A stretch of DNA of 64,000 bases from a virus. A program made the translations under genes and the position numbers. The notes below the pieces were generated by a model. The model did not search any database, was not told the origin of the DNA, and saw only the letters and a list, made by a program, of their open reading frames with translations. The DNA lies in the IMG/VR virus record IMGVR_UViG_3300033153_007973, positions 64,001 through 128,000 of that record. One strand, written 5' to 3'. Shown piece by piece: positions 6,419 through 64,000 of this stretch (position 1 is the stretch's first letter; every line of letters begins with the position of its first letter).

Positions 6419-6421
6419 CTT

Positions 6422-6494: not shown

Positions 6495-6501
6495 CAGATG
6501 T

Positions 6502-6585: not shown

Positions 6586-6656
6586 TCTTGTAGCTCAATC
6601 GGTAGAGCACCATACTCATAATGTGAGGGTTGGTGGTTCGAGTCCACCCAAGACCA
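6584..6656 (+). tRNA. tRNA-Met or Ile2 (CAT)
   Basis: Acceptor GGTCTTG/CAAGACC, anticodon loop CTCATAA, T arm GGTGG-TTCGAGT-CCACC. A CAT anticodon may be methionine, or isoleucine if C34 is modified to lysidine. Confidence 0.92.
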
Positions 6657-6681
6657 ATAGCTAGCCGATTCCAAGGACGCC

Positions 6682-44700: not shown

Positions 44701-47700
44701 GGTCGTTTCCAGACTGATAAGGCTTCAGTATTAGATATAGATAGATCAATAGAACCATTATGGTCACCCTGGGGAAGAAATAGCAGAGTAAAAAGCAGTG
44801 GTGGTGATTTCCCGAGATCTGGTCTTCTTATGTCAAAGAATAAAGATGAACATGGTGACATAATGATGTCAATAAAGGAAGAACTATTTCCTAATTCTAA
44901 TGCAATGGAAGGACAGATCCAACCTATTACAATGAAGGGTGCGCAATCTTTGATGATAACCAATGCGATCAACAATGTCGGAAACATTGTTGGTATGGGA
45001 TTTAATAAGAATACAGCATCATCTACTAAATCATTTATGCAAGCAACGCTCTTCAAAAGAATATTGCCAGCTGCTGCAATTGCATCAGCGTGGCAAACTG
45101 CCGATATGGTTGCAGATGAAAGCAATCTCTTTGAGGGTACAAGTCTTGGCGAAGGTCTGAATGTATTTGTAGGAGAACAGATTGCGAAGACGCGACTTAG
45201 TATTGCGAGAATCAATGATATAACTGGAGTAACTGATAGTGCAAAGTATCTAGAAGATTTAATGCCGGGAGCAGTTAATAGCGGATTCAGTGGTGCATTA
45301 AGAGGATTTGGTATTCCAATGCTGGGAAGTGCACTTGGAATGGCTAAAGGTGGTCCCAAAGGTGGGATGATTGGTGGTGCAATTGGTGGCCTAGTCAGTC
45401 TCTTTACTGCAGGTGGACCACTAGCAACGATACAACAATTTGACATTACTAAATCCAGACGAGAATTATTAGAACAATATGCAGGTAGAGCTGAGGTGCC
45501 AATATATAAAGGTCAAGGTTGGTTATTTGGAGGAGGCTCAGTCGGTGGTATAAGACTTGATAGATATCAACCAAACTGGTTTCATAGATTAAGTTCACAG
45601 TATAGACATAGCGATGTTCTTTATGGTGACAAGTTCGAGAGAATGCGAGCATCTCTAGACCCATTTCATTACTACGAGAAACACAAATACTCACGCCCAT
45701 ATCCAGTCAAAGAGATAGCCGGCGTAAATATGCCTCTCGTTGGTAATGTAATTGGACTTGGTGGACAAATGGCTTCTGAAGAGGATCTGAAATATGGAAA
45801 TCTAGCATCATCTGTAGATAGTAATACATCATATCAATCAATTCCATTTGGTGGACAACCAAGTATATATAGTAATGAAAGACCATGGGGTGGATCCATG
45901 ATGAATGGCATAGGACTTCCAGCCGGATCCGCTCAACCAGATGCTCCTCGAGCTATTAAACCAACATCATTCCCTGCTAGAGTAAATGCAGCATTCAGAA
46001 TGTCCACAGAGTTCGCTGGTCTTCGTGGATTTATGACACAGGAAATGATCACCAATGCAAATGGCGGGATGTATCCATACGAACAGAATCCTATTCTAGC
46101 ATCAGCTAGTAGCATGACCTCTCCAAGTCGAATGTTCTGGGAACAGGAATGGGGAGACATGTTAGCTATGTCAGAAATGATCAGACGTTTTGTTCCTAAA
46201 AAGGGACAACACACAAACGAATGGAATCAGATGCCAAACATAATGCCTAAGTGGATGCCTGGTGATGATGGATTTATTAATTTTCAGGCGGGAGATCCCT
46301 ACTGCGTCAGTGCTGACACTCCAATAAATACTTCAACTGGGTATACATTGGCAGCTGATATCTGCGAAGGAGATAAGATCTATACACATAATGGAAGCTG
46401 GTTACCAGTCAAGAAGAAAGTAAGAAGAAAGATCAGGAAAGAAGAGAAGAGTTACAGTTTGAAAGTTTCTGGAGTGTGTGGAGTCGATCTTGAGTTCTCA
46501 GAAGAGCACCCATTGCTGGTAAAGAGAACATCAAAGTGTACGTTCTCGAATTCTTCTATCTGCAGACCGTTGCGAAATCTGATCAAGCCTCTCCCAGATC
46601 TTAAAGGATTCTGTGACAAGGTCAATTCCAAGAAATATAAGAAAGGGTCAGCAGGAACTCCAAAGAGAGGATGTAGTAACTCATGGGAGAATTCAGAAGC
46701 TTCCTTCGTTCCAATTAAAGATTGTAAGCCAGGAGATTATCTTGTCTACAAAATTCCAGCATCTGGCAACGATGAATCAACAATTGTTTCATATAAGCAG
46801 CTCGTTAATAGGTATCGATCACAATATGTAGATGTTGATAGAGTCCTCCACCTAGACGGAGGAATGTGCTGGGTGATCGGGCTGTACCTAGCAGAGGGAT
46901 CCACAGCAAAGGGTAAGAATGTTCCTCATCGGCTCATCTTCTCTATGTCTGATGATGAAGTTGAAGTTCTTAAACATGTCAAGATGCTTCTGTTGCAGGA
47001 ATTCAGTGACGTTCTGAGAGAAGAGTCGTGCCATATCAAGATTCGAGATAAGTCGGCAGAGCTTGTAATCACATCATACATTCTAGCGCAGATATTCAAT
47101 AATTTAGCTCCTGGTAACCTGTATCAGAAACGGATACCTCAAGTATTGTTTGATACAGACAACGATTGTCGCTTAGCATTATTATTTGGAATGATTCTCG
47201 GTGATGGATACATCTCATCCAAAGGCACAAGAATCGGATACTCTACAGCTAATGGTGATCTCGCACATGACTTTAGACGGCTGGCATTCTCACTAGGCAT
47301 CCCTGCATCATATGAGGCTAGGGAGAGAGTTGATGGAAGAACCGGCCGAAGAAACAACGCATATGAATGCAATTTCCATTCGATCAATGTATATGGAATG
47401 AATCTGGCTGACCTACATTACAAATCCGAGTTTGTTAGTTGGGGTTATAGTAGACTTCCCCACGTGGATAACTTCTCAGATGGCGAATACATATATCAAC
47501 GTATAGCACAAATCGATGAGATCGAACTCGAGTATGTGTACGGATTCGAAGTCGACGATGATGATAGTTTCTGTGTCATGGACTTTGCAACTCATAATAC
47601 AAAAATCACAAGAGGAGAGGCTCGTCTACCAGGAGCAGGTTATACATCTATGAAAGATGTTGCATTTAATTTCCCATTTGAAGCTGAATATCTTGGATTC

Positions 47701-49461
47701 AGTCAGAATGATGCTATCGGAATGTTAACTGGCCAAAAACTTCCAACAAGTCCAGATGATAGATATGACAAAATCCTTAGTGGAAAGATGGCACAGCGAA
47801 TAGCACAGAACATGTCAGCAACTAATATAAATATTAAGACTAATGAACAGGTATTTCATCCAGAGATGAACCTGTCTGGAAAAGCAGACTTAGTTGTTAA
47901 TGGTAATATCATGAAGATCAAAGCTGTCTCTAATAGAACATTCAGCAATCTAACCTCTCCTAATCCACAGCACACTTCAGAACTGAATGCACTTCTTAAT
48001 ATTTCACAGAGTAATGTCGGCTCACTCATGTATGTAAATGCTGAAACTGGAGACACAACTTCATTCAATGTATCTTCAGATCCGAATCGATTTAAACGTG
48101 ATGTAGAAACTTTAGAATCTGCAAAAGCAGTCTCTGAACATCTTATGACAAAGTATGGACCATCTATTGGTGTAGATATGGGACAAGCATATAGCAGAAT
48201 AGATCGTCTACGGATTCTGGGAGATGTCGCACCATACTCTAAGCAATTCAAAGATACACTCAAACAAGTTAAGACACTAGCACAAGTTGATAGATTAAGT
48301 CCTAGAGAACTACAAATTCTAGACGAAACTCTAGCAAGGGTTGATGAAAAGAGGGATAGATTCATATTTACAGAGAAGAGATTCAATCGCGGCAACCCAG
48401 TCACTAGTGAGGAACGACAGTATCAAGAGGGTATAAAATTGCAGTACAGTCCTTTGGAAAGAGCAGTTGGAAGCGGATGGGAAGCATTCACCCACCTCAA
48501 AAGTCCACTCCATACTAAGTTCTTAAATACATATGATCCTATCGAACAATATGAGAGAAATGAAGTCTATGGAAAACCAATTAGAATGTGGGGACAACCA
48601 TATCAGGATTTTGTCCGTCCGTATGCTACCTCTATGACGAATATCGATAGACCTATTCAAGGTGCGTTATCATTTGGAACTGGTGGCCTTATTTTTGGTG
48701 GACCGATAGGTGGTGCCATAGGTGCAGGGATAGGAACGATCTGGGGTGCATCAAATGGCGTTCGAGAAGTACCTGGATATAAACAGAAGGAACGAAGACT
48801 CATTGATACACTAGATAAAGTCCAATATGAGAAGGCCAGACGAGCATATGAACTAGATGGTGATACAGAGCAACTCAAGAAGATGAAGAATACAATGACA
48901 TGGGCATACTCAAATGCAACCACAGCAAACCAGCTTATTGCTGCCACTCCGAGACCAGAGAGAGCATTCATGGAAAGATTCATGAGAGCAGGAACGGAAG
49001 AAGAGCGAGAAAGGATTATGAGTGTTGTTCCAGATTATGTAAAACCTGTATTATCAAATGCCTGGATGGGTGGCTCTGTTGATAAGATTAAAGGAACAAA
49101 ACTCGAACGAATGCCTACCCCAGGTGAGGATTGGTCTGGATGGAAGAACGAGTTTAGAACAGAAGACATTGCAGTAAAGATGTTTAATAGAGCAGGACTC
49201 GATGCACATGATGTAGGACTTGGGTGGCAAAGTCAGATCAGGAAAATGAGCGCAACCCCCAATATTCCAGAATCATTCACAGAGGCTGTTGCTGGTGTTC
49301 CTGAAACACAATATGAACAAGTAATTAGAAGAGTAATTCCTGGAGCGACAGTCTCTGCATCAACATCAGGTGCAGGTGGCGTTAGTGTCAATCTGAGAGT
49401 AGAAGTTATAAATGAAGCAGCAATGGCAAAGAACACAGGGGTAAGAAATGCGCTATCCTAA
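41749..49461 (+). CDS. giant tape-measure-like protein with intein, 2570 aa (about 2138 aa after splicing)
   Basis: Follows the chaperone pair, the normal tape-measure position. Basic N-terminus, long helical stretches, and Gly/Ala-rich hydrophobic segments near residues 1180-1220 and 2300-2325 fit a tape measure or ejected protein. A 432 aa intein occupies residues 1519-1950. After it, residues 2015-2105 read like a RecB-type nuclease fold (GKADLVV with D2047, then KIK with K2058). The expected acidic residue before the Lys is itself Lys, so this domain is probably inactive. Its size exceeds most tape measures. Confidence 0.75.
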   Translation: MLTRTRDRENRERLGEFSKKSRGSPIRSILKMGATMLGWGIGLKVFRGMSFKANLGLGKILASTVRKGSLTNAFVSKVSEVAKAGIRAGKYTPGQISTMKKGRGWYRKLQTTVKTSLDTMATRHLSLHDAIKTEGLAKRQYFVKSSLEKTTNRLGGMHQRYAQAKINANIPELLDDLSLKDIRFTSIVRNTKKFSGSGLGRKINEMRSTKLLEPGGDLYARARKNSGATLGGPNFGKAMAARMYRYGTDFMSYAPLFYASHRLTAVDDKKWYQPSAIADWTKWAVGTDIVFRGAMPAASIGLRKLGRGAANILENTISPTMAQKGAKFLESISKSAPIRAADLARDYTKAEIGKVGVKDVPRYTKTFFQQYRRFRGMITKDPNLHLRKGTDHLEEAMSMLSKINTRIKGSMPKHEALAQFKKETIEPPSRAMSFFNKMIRGGGLSSASRTIKPTDVGNAFNKQVTVNAGRGMISLQGQEFDVSNILPKRLMQEAGRMLGKVSIAGVRPGTWFGLKGAFRKRRPFAQLLEKDQHLGIGIGDHDGFSGSAILQKFGEQGDRLELENQIKYASVGGKGQVATLIDKGDKTSEGWAKTNTKKLYQSMIAARKEELTPTGMEKYKAALARGHNIQREGESFFLMGDKSYYSVSSGVGTKKAPVVFQTGYDVNAGQFHRWDLYAKGQGGTLSDVAMDHFGRAGTVEVDGKPIYGSSGPRLHSRMHPDKSPIANMAAKFLDKFEVGSKEERAVLGKITDLGLGRYIDSANTKVFLSDEFLFHPEFAKTTLAQDDGSAAKLIRRLDAQSHRMEKVQAQRVLKGERLITAIRGDMQGNAAGKKIESTIINRLTDDFSVVKQKAKARMTFNKANKIQLRPEMEEIIEEIASGNATSFRKLQSSVHPKLRMNKLDAYNNSAYRTWFKSEDFGVLDREMASLMDRGIITRNDKAFRALEATRIISEFDNFDVHNELINAELGKLGDYNHNTINRVIGRFQTDKASVLDIDRSIEPLWSPWGRNSRVKSSGGDFPRSGLLMSKNKDEHGDIMMSIKEELFPNSNAMEGQIQPITMKGAQSLMITNAINNVGNIVGMGFNKNTASSTKSFMQATLFKRILPAAAIASAWQTADMVADESNLFEGTSLGEGLNVFVGEQIAKTRLSIARINDITGVTDSAKYLEDLMPGAVNSGFSGALRGFGIPMLGSALGMAKGGPKGGMIGGAIGGLVSLFTAGGPLATIQQFDITKSRRELLEQYAGRAEVPIYKGQGWLFGGGSVGGIRLDRYQPNWFHRLSSQYRHSDVLYGDKFERMRASLDPFHYYEKHKYSRPYPVKEIAGVNMPLVGNVIGLGGQMASEEDLKYGNLASSVDSNTSYQSIPFGGQPSIYSNERPWGGSMMNGIGLPAGSAQPDAPRAIKPTSFPARVNAAFRMSTEFAGLRGFMTQEMITNANGGMYPYEQNPILASASSMTSPSRMFWEQEWGDMLAMSEMIRRFVPKKGQHTNEWNQMPNIMPKWMPGDDGFINFQAGDPYCVSADTPINTSTGYTLAADICEGDKIYTHNGSWLPVKKKVRRKIRKEEKSYSLKVSGVCGVDLEFSEEHPLLVKRTSKCTFSNSSICRPLRNLIKPLPDLKGFCDKVNSKKYKKGSAGTPKRGCSNSWENSEASFVPIKDCKPGDYLVYKIPASGNDESTIVSYKQLVNRYRSQYVDVDRVLHLDGGMCWVIGLYLAEGSTAKGKNVPHRLIFSMSDDEVEVLKHVKMLLLQEFSDVLREESCHIKIRDKSAELVITSYILAQIFNNLAPGNLYQKRIPQVLFDTDNDCRLALLFGMILGDGYISSKGTRIGYSTANGDLAHDFRRLAFSLGIPASYEARERVDGRTGRRNNAYECNFHSINVYGMNLADLHYKSEFVSWGYSRLPHVDNFSDGEYIYQRIAQIDEIELEYVYGFEVDDDDSFCVMDFATHNTKITRGEARLPGAGYTSMKDVAFNFPFEAEYLGFSQNDAIGMLTGQKLPTSPDDRYDKILSGKMAQRIAQNMSATNINIKTNEQVFHPEMNLSGKADLVVNGNIMKIKAVSNRTFSNLTSPNPQHTSELNALLNISQSNVGSLMYVNAETGDTTSFNVSSDPNRFKRDVETLESAKAVSEHLMTKYGPSIGVDMGQAYSRIDRLRILGDVAPYSKQFKDTLKQVKTLAQVDRLSPRELQILDETLARVDEKRDRFIFTEKRFNRGNPVTSEERQYQEGIKLQYSPLERAVGSGWEAFTHLKSPLHTKFLNTYDPIEQYERNEVYGKPIRMWGQPYQDFVRPYATSMTNIDRPIQGALSFGTGGLIFGGPIGGAIGAGIGTIWGASNGVREVPGYKQKERRLIDTLDKVQYEKARRAYELDGDTEQLKKMKNTMTWAYSNATTANQLIAATPRPERAFMERFMRAGTEEERERIMSVVPDYVKPVLSNAWMGGSVDKIKGTKLERMPTPGEDWSGWKNEFRTEDIAVKMFNRAGLDAHDVGLGWQSQIRKMSATPNIPESFTEAVAGVPETQYEQVIRRVIPGATVSASTSGAGGVSVNLRVEVINEAAMAKNTGVRNALS
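46303..47598 (+). mobile_element. intein with LAGLIDADG homing endonuclease, 432 aa
   Basis: Starts with Cys (CVSADTPINT) after GDPY and ends with FATHN before Thr+1, the normal splice residues. Block B is present as FSEEHPLLV. Two LAGLIDADG motifs appear (VIGLYLAEGS, FGMILGDGY), and block F as VYGFEVDDDDSFCV. All blocks needed for splicing and homing are recognisable, so it is likely active. Confidence 0.93.
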
Positions 49462-52400
49462 TAGAATACATGCTGGCGATCATGATAATGATAGTATATT
49501 TAGTCCGATCGCTCCTCTTCTAGCAATTGGTGCTGTCAGTGCGATTGGTATGTCTGTAGCTATGATTAATCGCAATAGCATGCTTCGCTCAAAGTATTCT
49601 AGAATAGCCGCGGGGATGGATAGATATCCAACACAAGCCCTACCAAGAGTGGATAACAGTAGTGCATTCAGTGTTCTTCGTAGCGAAGCGGCCATGAATG
49701 AACTGAAAGCCATGAAGAAGCAGCGCTTAATTGATGTAGCTAGAATGGCTATTCAAAAAGAAGAAGAGGTGATCGCTAACGAGGTTAGTGATGCTCTCGG
49801 CGATCTAATGAATATCCGCTACAATCTATCTAATATAGAACTTAGAAGGGCATGGGGATCAGGCCATCCATTCGAACTAGCAGGCACTATCGCCGACACA
49901 CTCGATGAAGCCATATTAGGAATTAGTACAGGAAAACCAGATTCAATTCGAGATGCAATAACTCGCTTAAAAACAGATATAGCAACAATACAAACGCGGC
50001 CGAATACATCAGTTGAGATCAGGGCAGGAGATCTACAACAAGTTCTTGAAAGACTTCAGGGAGCTGAGAAACTATACACTGAAGATCTTCCAAAATTAGT
50101 AAACGCAGTGCAACCATTCGCTCCTGGTGCAGTTACCGCAGAAACAGCAGCAACTATCTTGGGCGGCTCACCAGCTACTTTAGCGAAAAGACTAAATGAA
50201 GAACAAATTCCCGGTGGAAAGAAAGGAAGAGTTAATCGGGAACGAATGGAACAAATAAAGATACTGACTGGATTCAAGACAGAGAAGATCAATAATAGAT
50301 TAGTTACCACACATGGACGAGTAAACTGGGTGCGAAAACTAAGGGGAATCAGTCCAACAACTGGGGCAATCATGCCCGCTGGTTCCACAATTAAAGTCAT
50401 ATATCCTCAAATTGGAGTTACTGGTAATATCGAAGATCTTGATAGAGTAGTTCAGGCTGCTGGAAAAGAATTCAGGACTCATCCATTACTGAAAGAAGCA
50501 CACAAGACACATCTCAGAATGGCTAAAAATGCAAAGGGAAATGTTAAGTTACTATTATCATCTCCAGATATGAAAACGTCACTTAAGAGATTTACAGATG
50601 GAGTAGTGGAACATCTTGGAGTAAACCCTAGAGATATTACTTTTACTCAAGAAGGAGCCAATGTTGTTTCCCTTGTTAAGTTCACTGACGCACCACCGAT
50701 GCGATTTGTCTTCCCATATGAAGAAGCAGGTCTATCAGCATCATATGGACATAATGTAATCTCAGCTTCCAAGAAATCTTTCACACATATGGGCAAAGGT
50801 GAAAAGAAGATACTGTCATCCAGCATCACTAATGGTTTTATTGATAGAATGGTTGGAAAAGGCACCGGTTCCAATGGTGTGTTCCAGAAGATGGCTACTG
50901 CAGGTGATATAAAGAATGGAGCATTCAAGGACGCAACATCAAGAGTTCTTTTCCAACGAAAAGTTAAAGGAATATTCTCTGGTGGTGGTAAAATGATGAC
51001 AGACGTAACAAATGCTTCCCCAGAGGCAATATCAAATGCAGTAACAACTTTTGAAGAGCTTCCAGGAACAGACAAAATTAGTGTATTACAAATAATGAAA
51101 CATGAAGAGGAAACTAAACTCAGTACTATTATATCTAATCCAACTGGTAATAGATTTGTAGGTCAGAAAACTGCGGTCCTCGATAAGATAAATAGTCTTC
51201 AACGACAAATCAATAAACTCCAAAAAGGATATAGTGCAGACAAAGCACTTACCGATCTTGAGCGAACCCACACTGGAAAACTCAAAGTTGCAGAAGTGAT
51301 TAACTATAATAATAATAATATCATTATTAGTGAATTAAGTAAAGACGGATTTATACCTACAACTTCTGTCGTAACGCCAGAACGAGCACTAAAGAATAAA
51401 GCGTGGGGATTGGAAGACATTAGAGAAAGATACAGTGATCCTGGATTGCAATGGATCAAAGGATCTAAATCTATAAATAATATGTATGTTTCTTCTGATG
51501 TATCAATATTTAGTCCCAGTAGCAGTGATTGGGGCAGAAGAATATCAAATTTAAAGAAGAGATCAAAACACAGACTAAAATTAACCATCGGTAAGAAAGA
51601 GGTTAATTTTAGTGGTGTTAGAATGATTAGTAGAGCAGAACAGGTTAAACGAGCAGCACTTGCAGGAGATTATAGCACAGCTCGTGGATCATATGGACAA
51701 GTTAATGTATTATTTGTTGACTCCATAGGAGGAGATGCTGGAGAACTCAGAATCACAGATGAAGTCGGTGACATGTTAGCTGGCTCAAGAGATAGAAAGG
51801 TTTCACTTAATTCTGCAGACATTAGACGGCCATTTAGTGGCATTGATCAGCAAATGACTAAAGCATTAAAGAAAGTATCTAAAGAGAATGGATTAATTGA
51901 TCTAACTGCTCCAGAGAATTGGCACGTTAGAAAGAAGCTTAATGTATTTCTTCCAAAGATAAAAGATCAAATCAAAACTCCTTACGAGGATATAAAGCTA
52001 ACTGCAATAACACATAAAGCAACGGGCAGTTATGAATTTCATTATACTGCGAATATGACAGCTGCGACGAAATCAAAGATTCTGCTTGGTGCGAACAATG
52101 AAAGATTACAAGTACATTCTACATTATCCAAAGATAGAATGTTTGAAATGCTTGCTGCTGAAATGGACTGGGATTTATCAGATGCTAATAGCTCTAAGAC
52201 TCAGTTCCTCAGAGACATAGGAGCAACAGTGGGTGCAAAAGCACCACTCAGTCTCTTCAAGAAGGGAATTGCAACACCAGGAGCAGCAGCCGGATTAGGA
52301 ATGAGCATAACAAATGCGCTAGTTTTTAGAACACTCTATAGAGTTCAAAAGATTCTGGCAGATCGTGGTCTTAGAACCATGGATGATAAACAAGCAACAA

Positions 52401-55400
52401 AGATCGTACAAGGTCTTTTGAAGATAATTGACAATCAAGGAGAACTTGGGCGAAATGTCAAATTTTCAGTTGATGATCTTCTTGGTGGAGCAACACTATT
52501 AACACACATGGGTAATAAAAGCACTAGTGATACAGCAACTCTTATAGGTAGGACTCTCAATATTAATACTATCAAAGATCCTGACACTTATAAAAAGATG
52601 ACTAAAGGTCTGGCAAAAGTGATCGAACAATTTGGACATGAGAATAAGTCGAAGAGTGCAAACACAGCAAGTGAGATTATGGATTCTATTGTAAAATTTA
52701 GAGATGGAGAGATCAGAATATTTGGTCTCTCACAGATGTATCATACTGCACCAGACATTGATGAAACTTTCAAGATGAGCTCTGGAAAGTTTGGGCCCGC
52801 GGGAGTTGGTGGTGATCCAGCTGGGACAATAACATCAATGACAGAAGTAATAGCAGCAAAATTGAGCGGGTTCAATTCACTTGCAGACAAAGCACAATTA
52901 CAAATGGCAATGGGAATGGAATACACAAAAGATTACTTTGCCATATATGCAGGTCTTCTTGAGCCTTCATTAATGGAAGAACGTCTGGCTCAGTTTGGAA
53001 CTGATAGATTCAAAAGTAAGAATCCTGGAAAACAAGAAGTACTAACTATAGATAAGCTCATGAGTATGGCAAAGAGAGATAAAGATGGAAAGAAGAACAG
53101 ATTCTTCGATCTGTTCAAAACCAGATACGGAGTCAATACAGAAGCATTTCAGGAAGCAGTTGGTGAAGGTGGTATTCTATTCGGGAAACAGAAGATTGAG
53201 ATGGCAGAAGCCATGAGTAATATACAAAGACTCGTAAATGAAAACATGAAGGAAGTGGATCTCGAAAAGTTCTCTGGTAATGTAAAGAAACAAATACAAG
53301 AGATCATGTCACTGTCTCCGCTTATTTCGTCAAAACAAGCACAATTATATCACGAAATAACTCGAGATTATAAGTTCCTTGAACTAAGTAAGAAACACCC
53401 ACTGAAAATACTGGGAGTTAATAGATCAATGTCAAGAGTTCCTATGGTTGGATTCTTTGATATTCCTACACGTGATATTCCAGATAACCTTATGGATGTC
53501 TTTGCAAATAGAGATCTATATGCTATAAACCAAAAGATTATAGAAGGTACAAATGTAGATATTGGAAAACAAGTCATAGGGAAAACAGGCGCAAAGATAG
53601 GAAAGGATATTTCAAAGAGTTCAAAGGTGCTTGTTCAAAATGCTCCACATCGCGCATTGTTAAATCTTATGACTGCGGTATCTGTGGGTGCAGATGAAGA
53701 AGTCATCGGAACATTCGCAGATAGATACACAACAGCCATACAACAATACTCACAGGCAGTAGGAAGAACTACAATTAGTCCTAGAGTTGGTGGGTCTTTA
53801 CAGACACGGCCATTACAATCTGAGGGAAAATTTAACCTCGCTATTATGAATACCAAAGCAGCAAAATATAGTCTTATGAATGCTGAGAAAGTAAAGAATA
53901 TGCCTGGTGCACTTTCTGGTACTCGGATATGGCAACCAGATCTAGGTGAGATTTGGATGGATAAGAGCACTTTTATTAATGTAATGAAGAGTGAGATGAG
54001 CGGTGATCATAGATCAATGAACAAGGCAACACAGATGGCTGATGAAATCATGGCCGAATCTAGAATATTTACGAGATTCTATAATAGAAAACCAACACTA
54101 GGACAAGACATAAGAGCACTCCGTGTCAGACTTTTTGATGCTGAGATGCTTACAGATCAAAGATTTGCTGGAAAGGTTGCATCAGGTGAGATAGCAAGAT
54201 TAAAGAAATCAATGATCCTTTCCGTGATTGATCAAAATCTTGCATCAGGTGACTTTGATGGTGATACTGGTGCAATGGTCATGGCTATGTTCAAAGGTAA
54301 GATGTCTGATAATGCAGATGTACTAGCGGATTGGGTAGTTGGTAATAGTTTCAGATATCAGACAAGCGATGGAAATATCAAAGTATTCGAGAATAGTGGC
54401 AGAACTGGTAGAGCATATATGGAGACATTCCAAGAAGTAATAGAAACATCTGCTCATAAATCAGACAATAAAAGATTATCTAATCAATTATCAAAGACAA
54501 CAGTAACAATTGAACAACAGATAGAACACGTTGCAGGAATGGTTCCAGATTCTGCAGAACGCGGACAGTTCTATACAAAAGTAAGAGATCTAGCAAAAAA
54601 GCAATATGGAGATGATCTATCACAGGCTGTAACATTTCGCACTGGAATAGGAGATATCAGATTTTGGAATAACTCAACAAGCATTCCTAGAAATCTTATA
54701 CGCGCTAAAAGAGCAGCAGAAGCAAAGATGACAGAACGAGCAACGGGCATCAATACTGCAGATATTATCGAAGAAGGAATTGAAGCAACTGAACAATTCC
54801 TTGGTGATCACGGTATGGTCTATGACCATAAAGGCATAGCACAAGAACTAAAAGCTACACATGCTGGGACAGGTGGAGGGAAAATAGCACATGCAGCATT
54901 AGCAAACATGAAAGATCAAATAGATTATTATGGTCCTTCACGGCTCATGTTAAAAGCCGGAACAGGACCCGTATATAACTTTATGCACAACCATTTATGG
55001 AACGCAGCAATTAATACCTTTGGTATTACTTCTCAACAATCAAAGGATCTTGTTAAGTGGGGAAGAGTTCCACAGCAAGCAAATATCTCTATGAAACATA
55101 TGCTTCCTGGAATTGCCGGCGATGCTGTTAATAATCTAAAGACATTCTGGACTGCTATACCAGGAAGTTCAGCACACAGAAACTCTGGATTGAAACTAAA
55201 GACAGGCAACTATGATTTTACACTTACAAAGTTTTGGGGAAATCAAGTAAAGAGAACACAACAGATAGCTAAGAAGCTTGGTGATGATAGTCTTGATGAT
55301 ATGCTAGAGAAGGTCACATCATTTGGTACAAATCCCATCGTCAAAGATGATGGAGTAATCAATCTAGGTGACTTTATACGACTTCAGGATCGAAGACTTA

Positions 55401-56272
55401 AATATATGGAACGAGGTCTTCTCGCTAAAGTATCAGATGAAGGAATAGCTGCAACACAAAAGAGTAAGTCTGTATCTGAAAAGCTCATGAACGAGTTAGC
55501 TACAGAAGATCGAGTATATAATGAGATAGAGGAATCTGGAGCTTTCTTCAGAAGTGTTGCTGGTAGTGAATCCGCAACATCTCATATCATGAATAAGAAG
55601 ATCTTTGAAGGTGGTAATCAGAGAATACATAGATCTTTTCGTGCATTATTTAGTGGAGAAAACATTGGAAAACATGTCGATGATGATATATTAAGAGGAA
55701 CACTGGGGCAAGTAGCACAGAAAATAGCACCAGCAAAGATAAAGCCGCTATTCACTCGTCCTAATGTTGCTAAATATGCAGCAGATTCAATCTCTCGAAA
55801 AGCAGCTAGACTGATTGAAGGTACTTCTCTACGGAAACATATAGATACTAAAGGAATGAAAGCCGCGGGAATGGGAATGACTTTGCTCGGCACTGCTGCA
55901 GTTGGTTTCTTGGCATTTGCTGCTGCATCCCCTGGCGGACAACCTTGGCTAGGACCAAAACCTGGATATGGTGGAGAATACAACGAACGCAGACGTCGCA
56001 AAGATGAAGAGCACATGGAGAATATCACCACCACTGGAAGATCCAAGCTCAAATTTCTAGATGGGAACTCATATCCAGATTACACACCATCCAAAACTGC
56101 TAGAATCTATATAGATCCACAGAAGAAGAGATATGCAACTGTATCACAAACCTTACGTTCTGTCCAAAATCTTGGTAATGCAGGAATCATGGACTTTAAT
56201 AAGCGACAGATGGTATCTGGTGGAACAACAATCAATAATATGTCAAGGCCGAATGGATATGGAGGATTCTAA
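49448..56272 (+). CDS. giant protein with RNA polymerase beta-prime-like catalytic barrel, 2274 aa
   Basis: The ATG overlaps the previous gene by 14 nt. NRKPTL (1546-1551) followed by LASGDFDGDTGAM (DFDGD at 1602-1606) matches the NRxPTL and NADFDGD motifs of multisubunit RNA polymerase beta-prime. The three Asp residues bind catalytic magnesium. A hydrophobic Gly/Ala region ends the protein (near 2140-2160). Single-chain relatives exist in crAss-like phages (virion polymerase) and SPbeta (YonO). Its place among virion genes suggests a packaged polymerase that transcribes early genes after injection. The catalytic motif is read directly; activity and virion location are inferred. Confidence 0.7.
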   Translation: MRYPNRIHAGDHDNDSIFSPIAPLLAIGAVSAIGMSVAMINRNSMLRSKYSRIAAGMDRYPTQALPRVDNSSAFSVLRSEAAMNELKAMKKQRLIDVARMAIQKEEEVIANEVSDALGDLMNIRYNLSNIELRRAWGSGHPFELAGTIADTLDEAILGISTGKPDSIRDAITRLKTDIATIQTRPNTSVEIRAGDLQQVLERLQGAEKLYTEDLPKLVNAVQPFAPGAVTAETAATILGGSPATLAKRLNEEQIPGGKKGRVNRERMEQIKILTGFKTEKINNRLVTTHGRVNWVRKLRGISPTTGAIMPAGSTIKVIYPQIGVTGNIEDLDRVVQAAGKEFRTHPLLKEAHKTHLRMAKNAKGNVKLLLSSPDMKTSLKRFTDGVVEHLGVNPRDITFTQEGANVVSLVKFTDAPPMRFVFPYEEAGLSASYGHNVISASKKSFTHMGKGEKKILSSSITNGFIDRMVGKGTGSNGVFQKMATAGDIKNGAFKDATSRVLFQRKVKGIFSGGGKMMTDVTNASPEAISNAVTTFEELPGTDKISVLQIMKHEEETKLSTIISNPTGNRFVGQKTAVLDKINSLQRQINKLQKGYSADKALTDLERTHTGKLKVAEVINYNNNNIIISELSKDGFIPTTSVVTPERALKNKAWGLEDIRERYSDPGLQWIKGSKSINNMYVSSDVSIFSPSSSDWGRRISNLKKRSKHRLKLTIGKKEVNFSGVRMISRAEQVKRAALAGDYSTARGSYGQVNVLFVDSIGGDAGELRITDEVGDMLAGSRDRKVSLNSADIRRPFSGIDQQMTKALKKVSKENGLIDLTAPENWHVRKKLNVFLPKIKDQIKTPYEDIKLTAITHKATGSYEFHYTANMTAATKSKILLGANNERLQVHSTLSKDRMFEMLAAEMDWDLSDANSSKTQFLRDIGATVGAKAPLSLFKKGIATPGAAAGLGMSITNALVFRTLYRVQKILADRGLRTMDDKQATKIVQGLLKIIDNQGELGRNVKFSVDDLLGGATLLTHMGNKSTSDTATLIGRTLNINTIKDPDTYKKMTKGLAKVIEQFGHENKSKSANTASEIMDSIVKFRDGEIRIFGLSQMYHTAPDIDETFKMSSGKFGPAGVGGDPAGTITSMTEVIAAKLSGFNSLADKAQLQMAMGMEYTKDYFAIYAGLLEPSLMEERLAQFGTDRFKSKNPGKQEVLTIDKLMSMAKRDKDGKKNRFFDLFKTRYGVNTEAFQEAVGEGGILFGKQKIEMAEAMSNIQRLVNENMKEVDLEKFSGNVKKQIQEIMSLSPLISSKQAQLYHEITRDYKFLELSKKHPLKILGVNRSMSRVPMVGFFDIPTRDIPDNLMDVFANRDLYAINQKIIEGTNVDIGKQVIGKTGAKIGKDISKSSKVLVQNAPHRALLNLMTAVSVGADEEVIGTFADRYTTAIQQYSQAVGRTTISPRVGGSLQTRPLQSEGKFNLAIMNTKAAKYSLMNAEKVKNMPGALSGTRIWQPDLGEIWMDKSTFINVMKSEMSGDHRSMNKATQMADEIMAESRIFTRFYNRKPTLGQDIRALRVRLFDAEMLTDQRFAGKVASGEIARLKKSMILSVIDQNLASGDFDGDTGAMVMAMFKGKMSDNADVLADWVVGNSFRYQTSDGNIKVFENSGRTGRAYMETFQEVIETSAHKSDNKRLSNQLSKTTVTIEQQIEHVAGMVPDSAERGQFYTKVRDLAKKQYGDDLSQAVTFRTGIGDIRFWNNSTSIPRNLIRAKRAAEAKMTERATGINTADIIEEGIEATEQFLGDHGMVYDHKGIAQELKATHAGTGGGKIAHAALANMKDQIDYYGPSRLMLKAGTGPVYNFMHNHLWNAAINTFGITSQQSKDLVKWGRVPQQANISMKHMLPGIAGDAVNNLKTFWTAIPGSSAHRNSGLKLKTGNYDFTLTKFWGNQVKRTQQIAKKLGDDSLDDMLEKVTSFGTNPIVKDDGVINLGDFIRLQDRRLKYMERGLLAKVSDEGIAATQKSKSVSEKLMNELATEDRVYNEIEESGAFFRSVAGSESATSHIMNKKIFEGGNQRIHRSFRALFSGENIGKHVDDDILRGTLGQVAQKIAPAKIKPLFTRPNVAKYAADSISRKAARLIEGTSLRKHIDTKGMKAAGMGMTLLGTAAVGFLAFAAASPGGQPWLGPKPGYGGEYNERRRRKDEEHMENITTTGRSKLKFLDGNSYPDYTPSKTARIYIDPQKKRYATVSQTLRSVQNLGNAGIMDFNKRQMVSGGTTINNMSRPNGYGGF

Positions 56273-56469
56273 TGGGTGCTACAATCACAGTGAATGTCAC
56301 GATAAAGAACCAGGATCCAAACGAGATCGCAGCCAGGATCAGAAGTGCCCTTGAAAGCGTAACTTCAGAGCCAGTAACGATTAACATAACAGCGAGTGAA
56401 CAACAGGTTGACAATAATGCTATCTCAGTGTACAATAGAGAAAAACAGGAGAGAGGGCAACCACGCTAG
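56272..56469 (+). CDS. small protein, 65 aa
   Basis: The start overlaps the previous stop (TAATG). The first 45 residues alternate as a beta-alpha-beta unit (TITVNVTIKNQ, EIAARIRSALES, VTINITASEQ) and the tail is polar. A short partner between two giant genes; it could be a chaperone or structural clip. No family recognised. Confidence 0.65.
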   Translation: MGATITVNVTIKNQDPNEIAARIRSALESVTSEPVTINITASEQQVDNNAISVYNREKQERGQPR

Positions 56470-56483: not shown

Positions 56484-59400
56484 ATGGCTATATCTGCTAT
56501 ATCCTATTCTTCATTTTCTGTCCACGAGCTGTGTAAATACCAGTTCTGGTATCAGTATTATGCACAGCTTGCTGGTGATACTGGATCCAAGGCAACTGCC
56601 ATTGGTAACGTTACTCACACAGAAGCTGAAGACATGCTTCAGGAGCTGACGAATGTCCTTCCAGACAACACAGAGATAGGCTTCACAGAGATACAGAGAC
56701 AAGAAGTCGTACAAAGATATCAGGCTATTGTGTCATCCGGTCTAAAATCACTCCAGAGCCGATACGATATAACTCCAGCAGATATACAGAGAGCACTGGA
56801 TGGACTGGATAGACTTTCAAAGAGAACATATCTAGTTGGTGTACCAAATGACCAAGGTGTATATGATAAAATCAGATGGCAAGTAATAGACAAGGAAAAG
56901 CGATTTGATAAGACAATCAGTTCTCCAGATGGCGAATATAAACTGACTGGATCTATTGACTTAATCTTGAAGCGTCTCTTGGATGCCGGTGGTAATCCTA
57001 TTGCATCACATGTCCACCAGTTTATGGATCTTAAGTCTGGAAAGAAACAGTTTGGCCCAATCAGCTGGAAATCAGAACAGGTTATGGTTTATGATATCGC
57101 ACTTGGTGACCTATATAAGGTAGACGGCATAGCACCAACTCTCCGATATGACTTCTTCCTCTTACCAGATGATCCGAATCCCCACTATACCACTGTTGTT
57201 CCAGTTGGAAACGAAGTAAGACCAGCAGATTATCTTGCTAGAAGAGACAAGGTAAATAGCAGACTTTCTGCAGCATATAAATTCTTAACAGATGGAATTC
57301 CGAACGATTCAAATGATCCAACTGTTATCATAACTGAACCCAATGATTGGTGTACCAGATGTCCGGCATATCAACATTGTCCTAATAAAGAAAATGCAAA
57401 TCTCAGAAAAGCCCCAGCTGGCGGCCTCCGCGGAGGACCATATCCTGAACTCAGAACGCTCACAGAAAAGACAGGAGCATTTGCGAAGTCTGAACTAAGC
57501 GACGAAACACTCACTGAAATAATTGAACAGATTATAAATCATGGTGGTACAGTACGTGAAGCAATCGGCCACATGAAATCAGATGAAAGAGAATTATGGA
57601 CAACAAAATATACTAAATTCATGCAGGATCATTTATCTAACAAGACAAACGATATTATTGCTGATAATAAAAGGATCAAAGAAACAATACTTCAAATTGG
57701 TGCAGTTCACATAACCGCACCAATTACTAACATCAGTCTAACAGATAGAAAAGAAGTCGTTACCGCAGACACACTACGAACAAAAGAATCATTGACGCTA
57801 AGGAAACAGACATCAAATAGAGAAGCAAATCTCACTATTATCTTTTCTGGTAAAGACCAGATCAACTATGAACTACGTCATATCTTAGCACAGTACCAGG
57901 CTTTTCCATTTACTCAGATCAGGAACAAAGAAATCACAAGGATGCTAATCCCGCTCCAGTCACATCTACCAACATACTTTGCAGTCGATCAGACTCTTCT
58001 CAGAAAGGTACTCACAGACAACAACATAAAAGACTTCTCCACACAAAAAGGAGAAGCACACAGAAAAGACCTTAAAGCAGCTAGAGATGAAGTCTATTCT
58101 AAAGTTAAATTCATGTATGCAATCCGATCAATATCAATCGCACCAGTGCCATCTCTGGTTGATACTATTGAACTCAACTTAAGGATCCAGGTCATGGACT
58201 TGGATCCTGTAAGCGAAACTGGCAGAATCAGATTTCTATATGACACACAATCCGCACTGGAACAGCTTGGTTGGTTCACGCATTTCTGCCGACTAAATGA
58301 ATATCGTAAGAATGATACAAATGGATCTAAAACCATTGTTGATACAATTATACCAAAAGAAAAAGCAATAACGATATCATTCAAGAATGCAACAAACCAT
58401 AGAAAAATTGATCTAGGTAAATATTCAGTATTAGCTATGCCTTTATATATTGGAAGAGAAGATAATACATATTTCGTAAATCCAGGAGACGATGAGTTTA
58501 TTGATAAAGATGCGTACATCTTATTGGTTAGAACTCCTAATCGAGACACAACAACAACAACGTATACTTATCTAGCATTCTTGTATACCAGAGGATTATT
58601 ACTACCGATACGAGAATCAGATACATATCTTGATAAAGGGAAGATCAAGTTACCAGATGAACGATTAGTGGGACCTATAGATTCTCTAAAAACTGCTGAT
58701 CTTTCATATGTGTTCTGTACGGATCTATCAGTATATACTGAATCTGCATATAGCAGACGCGAATTAACAGAAGCATTTAAACTGTCGTGGAATAAACTTA
58801 CAGCGGCAAATTTTAATATAGCGCAAATAAATGCACGTAATGGAGTCCTTTCTCCTAGCACATCTGATCCACGACGTGCACCCGCATGGTTGAATGCATC
58901 AAAGAGATGGAAGAATTTCAATACTAACGGTGATATCTGGCCAATCATTAACCCTACTAATGTTATTGACCCATTCCTGACAATGATTGAAATCAGAAAC
59001 CAATCAAGTAACATAGTATCAGGCATCAGTGCAGAGATAAATGATTTGCCATGGGTAAGCGAACACAGAAACATGCAAAGCAGAGGTGTCTTTGGTGAAT
59101 GGATGTATACTTCACCTGTGATGCCAGCGCGTGTATCATCTGAAAACAGCACAGGAACAAAAGATGCAACAGTAACTATTACAGGGGTGGATAAATCAAC
59201 AATACCATTATTAGTAATCCAAAGGATATTCAGAAAACTATTCCTTAATTCTGAAGTATTGTTTACAACAAATCTTGGTGCTCTTATTAAGAGAAACTTA
59301 CCAAAGACATCTGCAGACCCAAAGCCATTTATTAAAGATCTTCAGAAATCATTTGAGGCTCGGTTCCAAAATGCATACGATAATGGATTTTATGCATCAG

Positions 59401-62400
59401 GACAGACCGAAGCTTATATCAGATTCTTAACTATTGATGCAATAGATAGAAGTAATATGCATCCGATCAACAAGACACAGGAAATTACTGTTAGTGACAG
59501 AAAGGGAACAATATTAACTAAACATAATATAGCATTTACTTCTGATAATCCTAATACAATGGATATAAAGTCTGGGAAACCAAAGGCTGAAATTGATACT
59601 AATACATTTATAGTAATGCCGCCAATCATTAATAAGAAGTACGCACAAATACTTATTAGCGAATATCATCGATATTCTGCAACTACTGAAGTTGCATATA
59701 GATTAGCATACAAAAGATTAGGTTCGGATGCTGATGCAACCAAAATTATATCAGAAGTGCAGAAGATTAAAAGTGCGCTATTACCATCGAATACACTATA
59801 TAGAGTACACAATACATTCTGTAAAAGAATGTCAGAGAAAGGTATTGGTTTTATTAATTATAGGAATGCTGTAGAAGAAATGCTATATGACAGTAGCATA
59901 ATAACCCCCAGTGCTGTTACATATACACCAAATCCTAATTCCACAAATGGAATGCTTGTTAGACTTGACCATGCAGCAGCAAACAATCTTCTAGATAAAA
60001 TAGTAGGATACGAAGGTCAAGATATCACATATTATGAGAAGATACTAAATGGCGGTACTCCGATTTTACGAGATGATATAGAATCATCCGAGGTCACTAG
60101 AGATATAAAAGTTATGTCAGGTGGTGGTTCCAATCCTGCACAAAGAGGATTGACAGTTGATAGTCTATCGCTCTCCAGACCATTCATTAAATATTATACT
60201 TCTCTTCTCGCAGAGTATGTCGATCCAGATAAGTATCTTGATATACTCGAGAGAGTTCCAAGTTACTTATATCACAAACCATATGAACAACACGTAGAAT
60301 TCCCATTACTACAGCCATATATCAAATCAGGCGAAGAAGGAAGAAGGAACAACATCAAAATCTTCTTCCGTAGTCTCAGATCGAGCACATTTGCAGCAAC
60401 TCAAGAAGATAAACTTAGCCGTGCTGCTTTTAGAACTATTAATGATATCGTCTTAAATGGAATACGAGAGATAATCTCAGGTTTCATGCCAGGAACCAGT
60501 GCAGAATATAGGCAATTTATTAATAGCGTTGCAAATGATCCAGAGACATCCAAATTATATAATCCAACAAATTGTGCAGACTGTTACTGTCCACACAATG
60601 CGGATATCAAAGCATACATAGATAGGCAATTAAGTGCTAAAATCAATAAGATGGCGGAAGATCTTGGAAATACTATTCCAACAGATAGTTCGATAACAGC
60701 ATCATCAACTGGCGCAGCCGATGGAATAGCAGCAAAAGAACTAATAATAAGTATAGTAAAGCAACTGAAGAAATATCCTGAACTCGTGACTGTGCATCAA
60801 CCACCAACAGAAGCTTCATATAATAGAATCGTTCGTGCTGTGCATAAACAAGGAACGATTAATCCAAATGACGGAGCAGTTGACCAAAGAAATCCAAGCC
60901 GCAGCCCTAGATTTCAGAGCTATTTGTACATAGGTACATATATAGCTGGTCTTCTTTACCTTCTCATGTGGAGAATGAAAAGATTTGCAGAACAGGATAG
61001 AGATAAGAATATAGTAAATGATGATGTTAGACGAAAAATAAGCATCACAATGAAATTAATAGATACTATTTTGAACAATTCAAGTTCAACTCAAGATAGG
61101 TTGACGCAGGAAATTCGTGGGATATTCAGTGGTATTGTAACAGATTATAAGAAAGATCAGAGTGCAAAAGAGAAGAGCAAATTCCAAAACTTAAATGTTG
61201 ATATAGAAACAACACAAGCAGAAAACAGTGTGTTAGAACTATCAAATCTATTTAATCATTATGGAAGAGCAATTGTAAAGTTAAAGACCATGCCAACATT
61301 CATAATTAAACGCAATGTTGATGGTAATATTATAAATCAAAGACAAGTACTAACTGATAGAGCAATATTAGATAGTGTACCAGAAGGCGATGTCTATCAC
61401 ACTATTATTACAAGTGATATTTTTGAAACACCAAATTTCAGGATATCAAGTGAAGTATCTATTTTGAAGGATGCACTGCTAAGTAGTGTTCTCACCTTAT
61501 TTGATAGTTTCATACCGGATCTCTTCTTTTGGAAAGAAATTAATATCGAGAATTCCAAAGACAGAGAGACTAATGTGACTACGATTACGAACTTCAAAAT
61601 AGCACAAGAGAATAATATTGTACCAGTATATATGGAGGGACATGAATATCCATTCCCACAGTGTCTTGGAGGAAGTTCGACCCAACTAACTATTGACTTC
61701 ATCACAGATGATATGTTCTTGGTAGAAAACATTGCAGAAGCAGCAACTGAACTCAATATCATGATGAAGAAATATAACCTGATCAAGAATGTCAATCCAC
61801 TTCGAAGACCAGCTGGTACTGAAGAATCCAGTTCCAGACATAAACAACTTAATAATCTACTTACTAGAGATCGACACAGAAGACACCTCGTAAATAAGCT
61901 CAATACTGCTATCAATGGTAAAGAACCTCAAATTAGCAAGAGCGGTCTTGATACTCCAATGCTTATCCAGAACAATATCGCAAATATGGTAGGTCTATAT
62001 GGATGTGTTATCACTGATATTGAGATACAGAGTCTTCCAGAGAAGTTTAATACATTCTCAATACGATTAGCAATGCGTGGTGTTGACATTCATCAGTCAG
62101 ACAGAGAGACACCTCGCCGCGTGTCTCAAGAATATGACCGAGCATTACTCTTGAGAGATGCATGTACCGTTCCATCATATGTAATACAAATAGGTGAAAA
62201 AGAACTCAAAACTAGAGGGATTCAAGATATCATTATGAATATCTCATCTCGTGGTGAAAAGATCGCAGCGAAGCTCGCTATTGTCGCACTTATAGCAAAT
62301 CTAGAAGAAGCATATAACACAATGGAACAACAAGCGATAGCGAATGGACATGATGCCACAGATACACATATGTACGATAAGACACTAGACATCATGTTTA

Positions 62401-64000
62401 GTTATGTAGCTAAGGAGCTCACTGTCCCCATACTCCAAACATACATAGAAAATCCAACGAGAACTACAGCCGAAGCACAGATTCAGTCTCTTCTCAGAAA
62501 TCTTCTAAGAAGAGCAGAGAATGTACTAATCAATGTTGGAGGATCCTTAATAACTGGAGGAGTAACATCAGAAAAGCGATCAAATTGGACACAAGCAACA
62601 GCCGAACCAGCAAGACTAAAGGCTTTCTGGACGTCTCTTCATGCAAATAAATATGCAAAGTTTTGGTCACATGCACTTGGTAGATCAGATAGAGATATAG
62701 ATGATGATGCTCAGGAAAAAGAACTACATAGTACTTTCCTTTCAACCATATTGATATATCTCACAATGCTCTCTGGAGATAGCGACGAAGATTATTACAC
62801 AAAATACACAAACGATGCTAAAAGTCTTGGTGATCTATTTAAGGATAAAGCAGTCCTTCATAACTTAATGGCACAGATTCGGGATAATCTTATTCCTGAT
62901 GTTGGAACATGGATTCCAACAGTATCTGCTGTCCTGAACTTTTATCAGCTTCCGTTTCTTATGTCGCCATATTATTATGCACAAGAGGACATACACATAA
63001 GACGCACAAGAGGACAAAGACGTATCCCATCACCAAAAGAAATAACGGATAGTAATAATGAGGACGCCATAAAAGCATACAACCACTTTGGTATACATAG
63101 TACTAATGACTATATAAAAAGAACAAAAAGATTTCAGAGATATCTACGAAGTTCAAGTAATCGCCCAACAATTGGCGATAGAATTGAATTGGCCCGCGGA
63201 TTCAATAATATTATCACTGATAACTATTTCAAAAGCGTTAGGACTAGACAAACCACATGGAAAGAGTATGGTAAGTTCAAGGATCTACTGACACCATTCA
63301 AAAAGCTAATACAAGATCCTAGATATGGATTAGCTGGTGCGATCGCAGGAACCAATACATATAAGAACTCACATGTCTTTGAGCCTGATAAAAGTAAGGT
63401 TACGATAGATAGAATTACGAATGGAATTACGTATGCTAAAAAATATACATATACAGATATGTTCTCTATTCCATCTGAAACATTTAATAGTTCAGACTTT
63501 GATAAACTTGCAAGATGGAGCACAAATGAACAAAGTATTGCTGGCATGCTTGGATTGACTGCACTCCCTACCGGTATTCTTGCAGCTGTTGGTGCATCTT
63601 TACTAGTAGGTTCAGGGCTATGGTTACCTGGAGCAATAGTTGGTGGAATACTTGGATTGGGTCTTGGTGTTGTATCATCCGTCATAGGAGCAGTCCAACA
63701 ATATCTCACCGATATTCTTGGTGCAGAAAGTCAGATTCCATATGATATTCTGATGATGATCAAGTTTGCTGATATACTTCATAACTCAATGGTCAGTCCG
63801 TTCTTGGGATTGAGACAAAGAGACGAGAAAGATGATCGTATACATTTAACTGAGAGTCCTAATATTACGACATTTCAAGCTAGTATCTCGGACAGAATAA
63901 TATTCGAAGATATCGTTCACTTGTTATCACCATCAACGCTAGCATTTTATGATTATCTGTATCTCAGTTCTGATGGAAGAGGAACCCAGTACTATGATAC
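56484..64000 (+). CDS. giant protein with N-terminal Cas4/AddB-like Fe-S nuclease, >2505 aa (3' end outside window)
   Basis: ATG at 56484 with no clear ribosome site; the frame stays open to the window end. Residues 1-300 hold a complete RecB-family nuclease: GNVTH (H45), GSIDLI (D158-159 region), MDLKSGKK (D182, K184) and EQVMVYDIA (Q199). C17 and C290, C293, C299 form the four-Cys iron-sulfur site of AddB and Cas4. The remaining >2,200 residues show no known domain except a hydrophobic Gly/Leu-rich region near the end (63540-63700). DNA-end processing is the likely chemistry; role unknown. Confidence 0.78.
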   Translation, partial: MAISAISYSSFSVHELCKYQFWYQYYAQLAGDTGSKATAIGNVTHTEAEDMLQELTNVLPDNTEIGFTEIQRQEVVQRYQAIVSSGLKSLQSRYDITPADIQRALDGLDRLSKRTYLVGVPNDQGVYDKIRWQVIDKEKRFDKTISSPDGEYKLTGSIDLILKRLLDAGGNPIASHVHQFMDLKSGKKQFGPISWKSEQVMVYDIALGDLYKVDGIAPTLRYDFFLLPDDPNPHYTTVVPVGNEVRPADYLARRDKVNSRLSAAYKFLTDGIPNDSNDPTVIITEPNDWCTRCPAYQHCPNKENANLRKAPAGGLRGGPYPELRTLTEKTGAFAKSELSDETLTEIIEQIINHGGTVREAIGHMKSDERELWTTKYTKFMQDHLSNKTNDIIADNKRIKETILQIGAVHITAPITNISLTDRKEVVTADTLRTKESLTLRKQTSNREANLTIIFSGKDQINYELRHILAQYQAFPFTQIRNKEITRMLIPLQSHLPTYFAVDQTLLRKVLTDNNIKDFSTQKGEAHRKDLKAARDEVYSKVKFMYAIRSISIAPVPSLVDTIELNLRIQVMDLDPVSETGRIRFLYDTQSALEQLGWFTHFCRLNEYRKNDTNGSKTIVDTIIPKEKAITISFKNATNHRKIDLGKYSVLAMPLYIGREDNTYFVNPGDDEFIDKDAYILLVRTPNRDTTTTTYTYLAFLYTRGLLLPIRESDTYLDKGKIKLPDERLVGPIDSLKTADLSYVFCTDLSVYTESAYSRRELTEAFKLSWNKLTAANFNIAQINARNGVLSPSTSDPRRAPAWLNASKRWKNFNTNGDIWPIINPTNVIDPFLTMIEIRNQSSNIVSGISAEINDLPWVSEHRNMQSRGVFGEWMYTSPVMPARVSSENSTGTKDATVTITGVDKSTIPLLVIQRIFRKLFLNSEVLFTTNLGALIKRNLPKTSADPKPFIKDLQKSFEARFQNAYDNGFYASGQTEAYIRFLTIDAIDRSNMHPINKTQEITVSDRKGTILTKHNIAFTSDNPNTMDIKSGKPKAEIDTNTFIVMPPIINKKYAQILISEYHRYSATTEVAYRLAYKRLGSDADATKIISEVQKIKSALLPSNTLYRVHNTFCKRMSEKGIGFINYRNAVEEMLYDSSIITPSAVTYTPNPNSTNGMLVRLDHAAANNLLDKIVGYEGQDITYYEKILNGGTPILRDDIESSEVTRDIKVMSGGGSNPAQRGLTVDSLSLSRPFIKYYTSLLAEYVDPDKYLDILERVPSYLYHKPYEQHVEFPLLQPYIKSGEEGRRNNIKIFFRSLRSSTFAATQEDKLSRAAFRTINDIVLNGIREIISGFMPGTSAEYRQFINSVANDPETSKLYNPTNCADCYCPHNADIKAYIDRQLSAKINKMAEDLGNTIPTDSSITASSTGAADGIAAKELIISIVKQLKKYPELVTVHQPPTEASYNRIVRAVHKQGTINPNDGAVDQRNPSRSPRFQSYLYIGTYIAGLLYLLMWRMKRFAEQDRDKNIVNDDVRRKISITMKLIDTILNNSSSTQDRLTQEIRGIFSGIVTDYKKDQSAKEKSKFQNLNVDIETTQAENSVLELSNLFNHYGRAIVKLKTMPTFIIKRNVDGNIINQRQVLTDRAILDSVPEGDVYHTIITSDIFETPNFRISSEVSILKDALLSSVLTLFDSFIPDLFFWKEINIENSKDRETNVTTITNFKIAQENNIVPVYMEGHEYPFPQCLGGSSTQLTIDFITDDMFLVENIAEAATELNIMMKKYNLIKNVNPLRRPAGTEESSSRHKQLNNLLTRDRHRRHLVNKLNTAINGKEPQISKSGLDTPMLIQNNIANMVGLYGCVITDIEIQSLPEKFNTFSIRLAMRGVDIHQSDRETPRRVSQEYDRALLLRDACTVPSYVIQIGEKELKTRGIQDIIMNISSRGEKIAAKLAIVALIANLEEAYNTMEQQAIANGHDATDTHMYDKTLDIMFSYVAKELTVPILQTYIENPTRTTAEAQIQSLLRNLLRRAENVLINVGGSLITGGVTSEKRSNWTQATAEPARLKAFWTSLHANKYAKFWSHALGRSDRDIDDDAQEKELHSTFLSTILIYLTMLSGDSDEDYYTKYTNDAKSLGDLFKDKAVLHNLMAQIRDNLIPDVGTWIPTVSAVLNFYQLPFLMSPYYYAQEDIHIRRTRGQRRIPSPKEITDSNNEDAIKAYNHFGIHSTNDYIKRTKRFQRYLRSSSNRPTIGDRIELARGFNNIITDNYFKSVRTRQTTWKEYGKFKDLLTPFKKLIQDPRYGLAGAIAGTNTYKNSHVFEPDKSKVTIDRITNGITYAKKYTYTDMFSIPSETFNSSDFDKLARWSTNEQSIAGMLGLTALPTGILAAVGASLLVGSGLWLPGAIVGGILGLGLGVVSSVIGAVQQYLTDILGAESQIPYDILMMIKFADILHNSMVSPFLGLRQRDEKDDRIHLTESPNITTFQASISDRIIFEDIVHLLSPSTLAFYDYLYLSSDGRGTQYYD

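Follow-up and report, generated by a model that had tools for sequence, protein, structure and literature searches.

A probable one-chain RNA polymerase core encoded at the tape-measure slot of a 0305phi8-36-like jumbo myovirus

The window analysed here, 64,000 nucleotides in all, spans bases 64001-128000 of a virus record of 234,008 bp. The initial annotation had assigned the gene under study to the tail block of a phage with a contractile tail; such a tail is borne out by a tail sheath gene at 30452-32893 (PHROG, E 3.5e-25), and terminase, portal, and capsid genes were found upstream of the giant ORF. Twenty tRNA genes are located at 1314-6657, a span of about 5.4 kb. The features of the locus are as follows.

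41749-49461, + strand: upstream giant virion protein of 2570 aa, intein included; the synteny anchor
49448-56272, + strand: giant protein of 2274 aa occupying the tape-measure slot, ATG start, between orf145-like and hub genes (ORF call and synteny)
52511-52579, + strand: GNKST ... NTIKD region, aligned once with the conserved Lys of a putative beta-like barrel; tentative
53783-53833, + strand: RVGGSLQTRPLQSEGKF, putative first strand region of the catalytic barrel; alignment-based and tentative
54083-54100, + strand: NRKPTL, residues 1546-1551, counterpart of beta-prime NRAPTL
54251-54265, + strand: DFDGD, residues 1602-1606, Asp triad D1602/D1604/D1606, invariant in alignments A3, A6, A9, and A10
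54683-54712, + strand: IPRNLIRAKR, aligned with EQ..IS.KH of the family; possible trigger-loop equivalent, tentative
55868-55924, + strand: hydrophobic segment near the C terminus (from the sequence)
56272-56469, + strand: ORF of 65 aa, similar (by eye, unscored) to a domain of about 60 aa that forms the C terminus of the giant protein in homologs
56484-63998, + strand: downstream giant ORF in the hub slot, running off the window; weakly similar to a KLEB27-3 baseplate protein

The upstream giant virion protein contains an intein at 46303-47598 (Hint and LAGLIDADG, about 432 aa). The hub-slot ORF begins with an N-terminal PD-(D/E)XK nuclease domain (PF12705, E 1.2e-9), which is unusual for a baseplate protein.

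The initial annotation had pointed to NRxPTL followed 50 residues later by DFDGD in the 2274-aa protein, and both motifs were located at the residues given above, with exactly 50 residues between them. Both fall in the C-terminal half of the protein, within a catalytic domain (residues ~1430-1760) that resembles RNA polymerase (RNAP) beta-prime. R1547 and P1549 correspond to an R-x-P that is near-invariant among the proteins encoded at this slot in related phages, and the three Asp of DFDGD are expected, from the sequence, to hold the catalytic Mg2+. When back-translated, the spaced motif pattern occurred once in the window and in 0/100 dinucleotide shuffles. Since shuffles of the protein itself also yielded the pattern (R.PT...D.DGD in 4/20,000 and, when relaxed to R.P...D.D[GA]D, in 135/20,000), the motif pair by itself is suggestive, not conclusive. 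The window protein had no meaningful sequence match in Pfam, PHROG, or PDB and no tblastn relative in the phage, IMG/VR, or GTDB collections, and the AlphaFold model of its core, built from a 23-sequence alignment, was poor (pLDDT 41.7). The window motif alone is thus thin evidence, and in view of the lack of direct relatives, evidence was sought through synteny.

The terminase and portal led to Moorella phage MTATph1, Acinetobacter phage ME3, and Bacillus phage KLEB27-3, in which the gene order is that of the window: giant virion protein, slot gene, baseplate hub. The product of 41749-49461 is homologous to MTATph1 CDS0026, ME3_35, and KLEB27-3 gp031/gp033. The slot protein of KLEB27-3, gp034, which is a structural protein by annotation only, carries NRYPT...DYDGD, and that of ME3, ME3_36, carries REP...DHDQD. 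The slot gene of MTATph1 is split by an IS21-like transposase pair, istA/istB (L002:34538-36780), and DxDxD was absent on both sides of this insertion. From an alignment of the upstream neighbour gene, 80 IMG/VR loci were found; in many of these the next downstream ORF had R-x-P followed by D-x-D-G-D or D-x-D-A-D, and other slot ORFs retained the three Asp and had lost the Gly. With additional loci gathered by searching with the catalytic domain itself, dozens of related loci have RxP...DxD[G/A]D in the slot. The initial annotation had made its reading depend on conservation of the three Asp in homologs, and they are retained in the syntenic slot proteins. Several slot homologs, including that of 0305phi8-36, were found to lack the RNAP domain by motif and profile, so the domain is not essential to the slot.

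Within the slot family, no trace of the RNAP domain was found by motif or profile in the L011-L063 clade, in which the slot protein is ~1600 aa long. Candidate DEDD exonuclease-type domains were seen, by eye only, near the N terminus of the KLEB27-3 slot protein (L004:31003-38307) and in the second half of that of MTATph1 (L002:30512-34441). Close subfamily members (L111, L112, and L113) lie on contigs of ~195-206 kb, possibly phage episomes, from cultured Paenibacillus sp. TCA20, Oceanobacillus profundus DSM 18246, and Alicyclobacillus shizuokensis.

The slot can be named by reference to 0305phi8-36, in which orf146 is the assigned tape measure protein and orf147 the hub (PMC2147016). That assignment was made mainly from tail length, and of orf146 only the last 60 residues aligned with its presumed relative (PMC2147016). 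For the comparison, a 218,948-bp IMG record (L065) was taken as 0305phi8-36. A C-terminal domain of ~60 residues is common to the RNAP-bearing homologs and the L065 slot protein, and in the window it is apparently a separate ORF, 56272-56469. The window protein and orf146 therefore share the slot and a similar C-terminal domain of ~60 aa, whereas orf146 has neither DxDxD nor a match to the RNAP-domain profile. Because orf146 in the same slot is assigned as the tape measure, the polymerase domain of the window is, by analogy, in the tape-measure-slot protein and not beside the tape measure, where the initial annotation had placed it. The upstream giant gene was considered as the tape measure and was dropped, since 0305phi8-36 gives that role to the orf146 slot. 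A hydrophobic C-terminal segment is present at the matching place in KLEB27-3, ME3, Moorella, and other homologs.

Homology of the family to RNAP was assessed using a profile of 21 slot-protein regions (160 positions), which was compared against 177,635 PDB sequences. It matched 116 sequences at E <= 10, the best 60 of these 116 were all RNAP large-subunit chains, and the top match was PHIKZ055 of the phiKZ non-virion RNAP (E 1.4e-5). Longer slot profiles matched E. coli beta-prime at 322-492 (E 8e-6) and S. aureus beta-prime at 314-470 (E 4.4e-6), and these beta-prime matches also take in conserved sequence that precedes the Asp motif. As a control, a profile built from the neighbour gene matched no RNAP. 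Among single slot ORFs, the Pfam family RNA_pol_Rpb1_2 matched L078 over the curated cut-off (E 3.1e-6), and also KLEB27-3 gp034 (E 7e-5) and L076 (E 1.2e-4). The R-x-P and the three Asp are retained across the aligned slot members. Because the seed sequences were mostly picked by D.D[GA]D, some circularity attaches to the invariant Asp of the first alignments; neither the R-x-P nor the members found by profile (L077, L082, and L037) are affected by it. The catalytic barrel of the slot family is homologous to the RNAP large subunit, and the beta-prime-type barrel recognised in the initial annotation is thus established at the level of the family. In the family alignment, RVGGSLQTRPLQSEGKF of the window is tentatively aligned with M..SG.G of the family and with LLGKRVDYSGRSVI of beta-prime.

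Fold prediction and a Foldseek search, as proposed in the initial annotation, were productive for the family member L076, whose model matched RNAP chains, and unproductive for the window protein, whose model was of too low a quality to resolve double-psi barrels and with which Foldseek returned nothing but noise. The model of the L076 core had a mean pLDDT of 53, with values of 60-84 over most of the catalytic region and lower values at the Asp loop; six strands surround R-x-P and DxDGD in a locally confident region. Against PDB, Foldseek gave 548 matches at E <= 1e-3, and the best 50 of the 548 were all RNAP large-subunit chains. Matches at the same threshold among the predicted viral proteins of BFVD were mostly named or unnamed RNAPs, and included an ME3 protein fragment whose 802 residues correspond in length to half of ME3_36 (1603 aa), together with a minor tail protein from a siphovirus. 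Global TM-scores were low, as expected of a partial, low-confidence model, and the L076 model is therefore evidence for the catalytic barrel but not for an entire enzyme.

Membership of the window protein in the family was examined by leave-one-out profiles, by which nearly all family members were recovered above shuffled decoys, ME3 and L007 being the members not recovered. The profile built in this way placed the window protein at residues 1504-1619 with an E value of 0.007, above every shuffled decoy; with other profiles built without it, the score was E 0.13 or 0.31. Single-sequence hhalign comparisons are insensitive here, as the undoubted beta/beta-prime RNAP of the same phage also scored poorly. 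On sequence and gene order, the window protein is best placed as a divergent member of the family, by motif, slot, and weak profile support jointly.

A complete one-chain enzyme would contain a second, beta-like barrel, which is putative in the family and in the window protein alike. Ahead of the catalytic barrel, slot subfamilies have a GxGxxxxxExR motif and Lys in conserved pairs, and these resemble, by eye only, GDKxxGRHGNKG and GGxRxGEME of beta in order and spacing. Sequence profiles of this region matched no beta subunit, so that the beta-like barrel is put forward from the likeness by eye. In the window, the Lys that is equivalent within the 52511-52579 region changes from alignment to alignment. 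After the catalytic barrel, many slot members have EQ..IS.KH, which by eye is like a trigger-loop motif, with a Q-to-H spacing which we take to be that of TQLTMRTFH in beta-prime; in the alignment, both Q and H are replaced in IPRNLIRAKR of the window.

The phage also encodes a second RNAP outside the window (locus L089; G000:C1:608-4234, - strand), a one-chain beta/beta-prime fusion of 1208 aa with GDKLADHHGNK and SRNP...GDFDGD and with Pfam matches above cut-off. It had no close phage relative, and its tblastn matches in the phage collection resemble bacterial rpoB. Its gene lies far from the tail genes, a location from which a non-virion enzyme would be expected. Among 30 related records, a QDE-1-like RNAP (PF05183) was found in 7, and 6 of the 7 also have the slot RNAP domain; two other related records have a beta-prime-like polymerase as an ORF of its own, about 570 aa long. 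The second RNAP gene fits a pair of virion and non-virion polymerases, with second enzymes that differ by lineage.

Taken with the evidence above, the window protein is read as a tail protein of a 0305phi8-36-like jumbo myovirus with a one-chain double-psi-barrel RNAP core, likely a virion RNAP, and this reading is given a probability of about three in four. Virion RNA polymerase is the most likely role of the window protein, and phages of the slot family may send a transcription enzyme of their own down the tail along with the DNA. For the window protein we infer polymerase activity, virion location, ejection, membrane anchoring, and a role in early-gene expression, along the following lines. 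The polymerase-bearing tail protein would be packed in the tail tube and ejected ahead of or with the DNA; its C-terminal hydrophobic segment would anchor it at the inner membrane; and the polymerase would transcribe the genes that enter first, among them perhaps the gene for the second, non-virion RNAP.

It is unlikely that the domain is instead degenerate or repurposed, an RNAP homolog that has turned, in the window phage at any rate, to a non-catalytic structural or DNA-binding function. The replaced Q and H at the trigger-loop-like position, the shifting Lys, the strong divergence of the window protein, and the complete loss of the RNAP domain from some slot homologs would all agree with such a history. 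The R-x-P and the three Asp are nevertheless retained in the aligned members, the Asp even where the intervening Gly is gone, and this retention counts against a purely structural role, for which neither would be needed. Little probability is attached to a late-made, non-virion RNAP that is merely encoded among the tail genes. Some phages do encode an RNAP away from the virion block, but the slot is that of the 0305phi8-36 tape measure and its KLEB27-3 occupant is annotated (annotation only) as structural, the genome of the window phage has a separate RNAP outside the tail block, and the C-terminal domain is common to the 0305phi8-36 slot protein. Very little indeed is left for a chance motif in an ordinary tape-measure or ejection protein, with a real slot RNAP domain confined to other phages: composition-matched shuffles do produce the pair (4/20,000) and the window protein is without a sequence match or fold, but the pair lies in the same slot and at a similar relative position as in recognisable homologs, and the leave-one-out profile locates its region above all decoys.

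A broader proposal, for which the balance is even, is that in a large and old lineage of contractile-tailed jumbo phages the tape measures are complete one-chain RNAPs of the cellular (beta/beta-prime) type, gained independently of gp96 of phage P23-45. They would transcribe the DNA on its way out of the tail, each working alongside a second polymerase of exchangeable kind: a beta/beta-prime fusion, split subunits, or a QDE-1-like enzyme. If the virion reading of the slot family holds, tail-fused virion RNAPs would extend from one group of Thermus siphoviruses to many jumbo myoviruses, a range that would include ~200-kb contigs in cultured Bacillota assemblies (Paenibacillus, Oceanobacillus, and Alicyclobacillus), which are open to testing. 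It would also explain in concrete terms how phages of the slot family could begin early transcription without the host. On this reading, coupling transcription to the tail would be a solution that recurs, not an oddity, and many unannotated giant tail ORFs would become testable enzymes.

Among known systems, the phiKZ non-virion RNAP and cellular beta-prime/Rpb1 are the closest solved structures, by profile and by fold, among the matches listed. Phages of the phiKZ/AR9 type have two RNAPs, one of them in the virion, and the window phage likewise has two RNAP genes. In phiKZ, beta and beta-prime are divided among several proteins, whereas the beta-prime-type domain of the window lies in one 2274-aa chain, and no separate polymerase partner was found in the tail block of the window. 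The crAss-like phi14:2 gp66 and the QDE-1/YonO enzymes resemble the slot family in having one chain with DxDGD, and gp66 is delivered with the virion; gp66 is podoviral, whereas the window phage is contractile-tailed. Neither gp66 nor QDE-1 was among the PDB profile matches listed, and the QDE-1-like RNAP of some related phages is a separate second gene, not the slot domain. A crAss-like assignment was rejected on the contractile tail and the absence of gp66 similarity.

The nearest precedent in design is gp96 of the Thermus siphovirus P23-45, described in PMC10770324 as a tape-measure-fused virion RNAP. As in the window phage, a polymerase domain with DFDGD lies inside a giant tail protein, and gp96 is there a one-chain double-psi-barrel enzyme. 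The same source gives P23-45 a separate non-virion RNAP and some relatives without the fusion, and in both respects the window phage is alike, with its second RNAP elsewhere in the genome and relatives that lack the fused domain. To the initial annotation, a one-chain form next to a myoviral tape measure would have been a different design; the design is not unprecedented, as gp96, one-chain and fused to a tape measure, was already published, and the survey of two-RNAP viruses in PMC10770324 may already list some of the phages treated here. In gp96 the RNAP occupies the N-terminal end of a siphoviral tape measure of 5,002 aa, whereas in the slot family the domain is in the C-terminal half and the phages are jumbo myoviruses. 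A comparison of the slot-family profile with gp96 residues 1-1200, an insensitive test, found no similarity, and in sequence the slot family is nearer to cellular and phiKZ RNAP than to gp96. Relative to gp96, what is new in the slot family is the type of phage, the position of the domain, and the affinity of its sequence.
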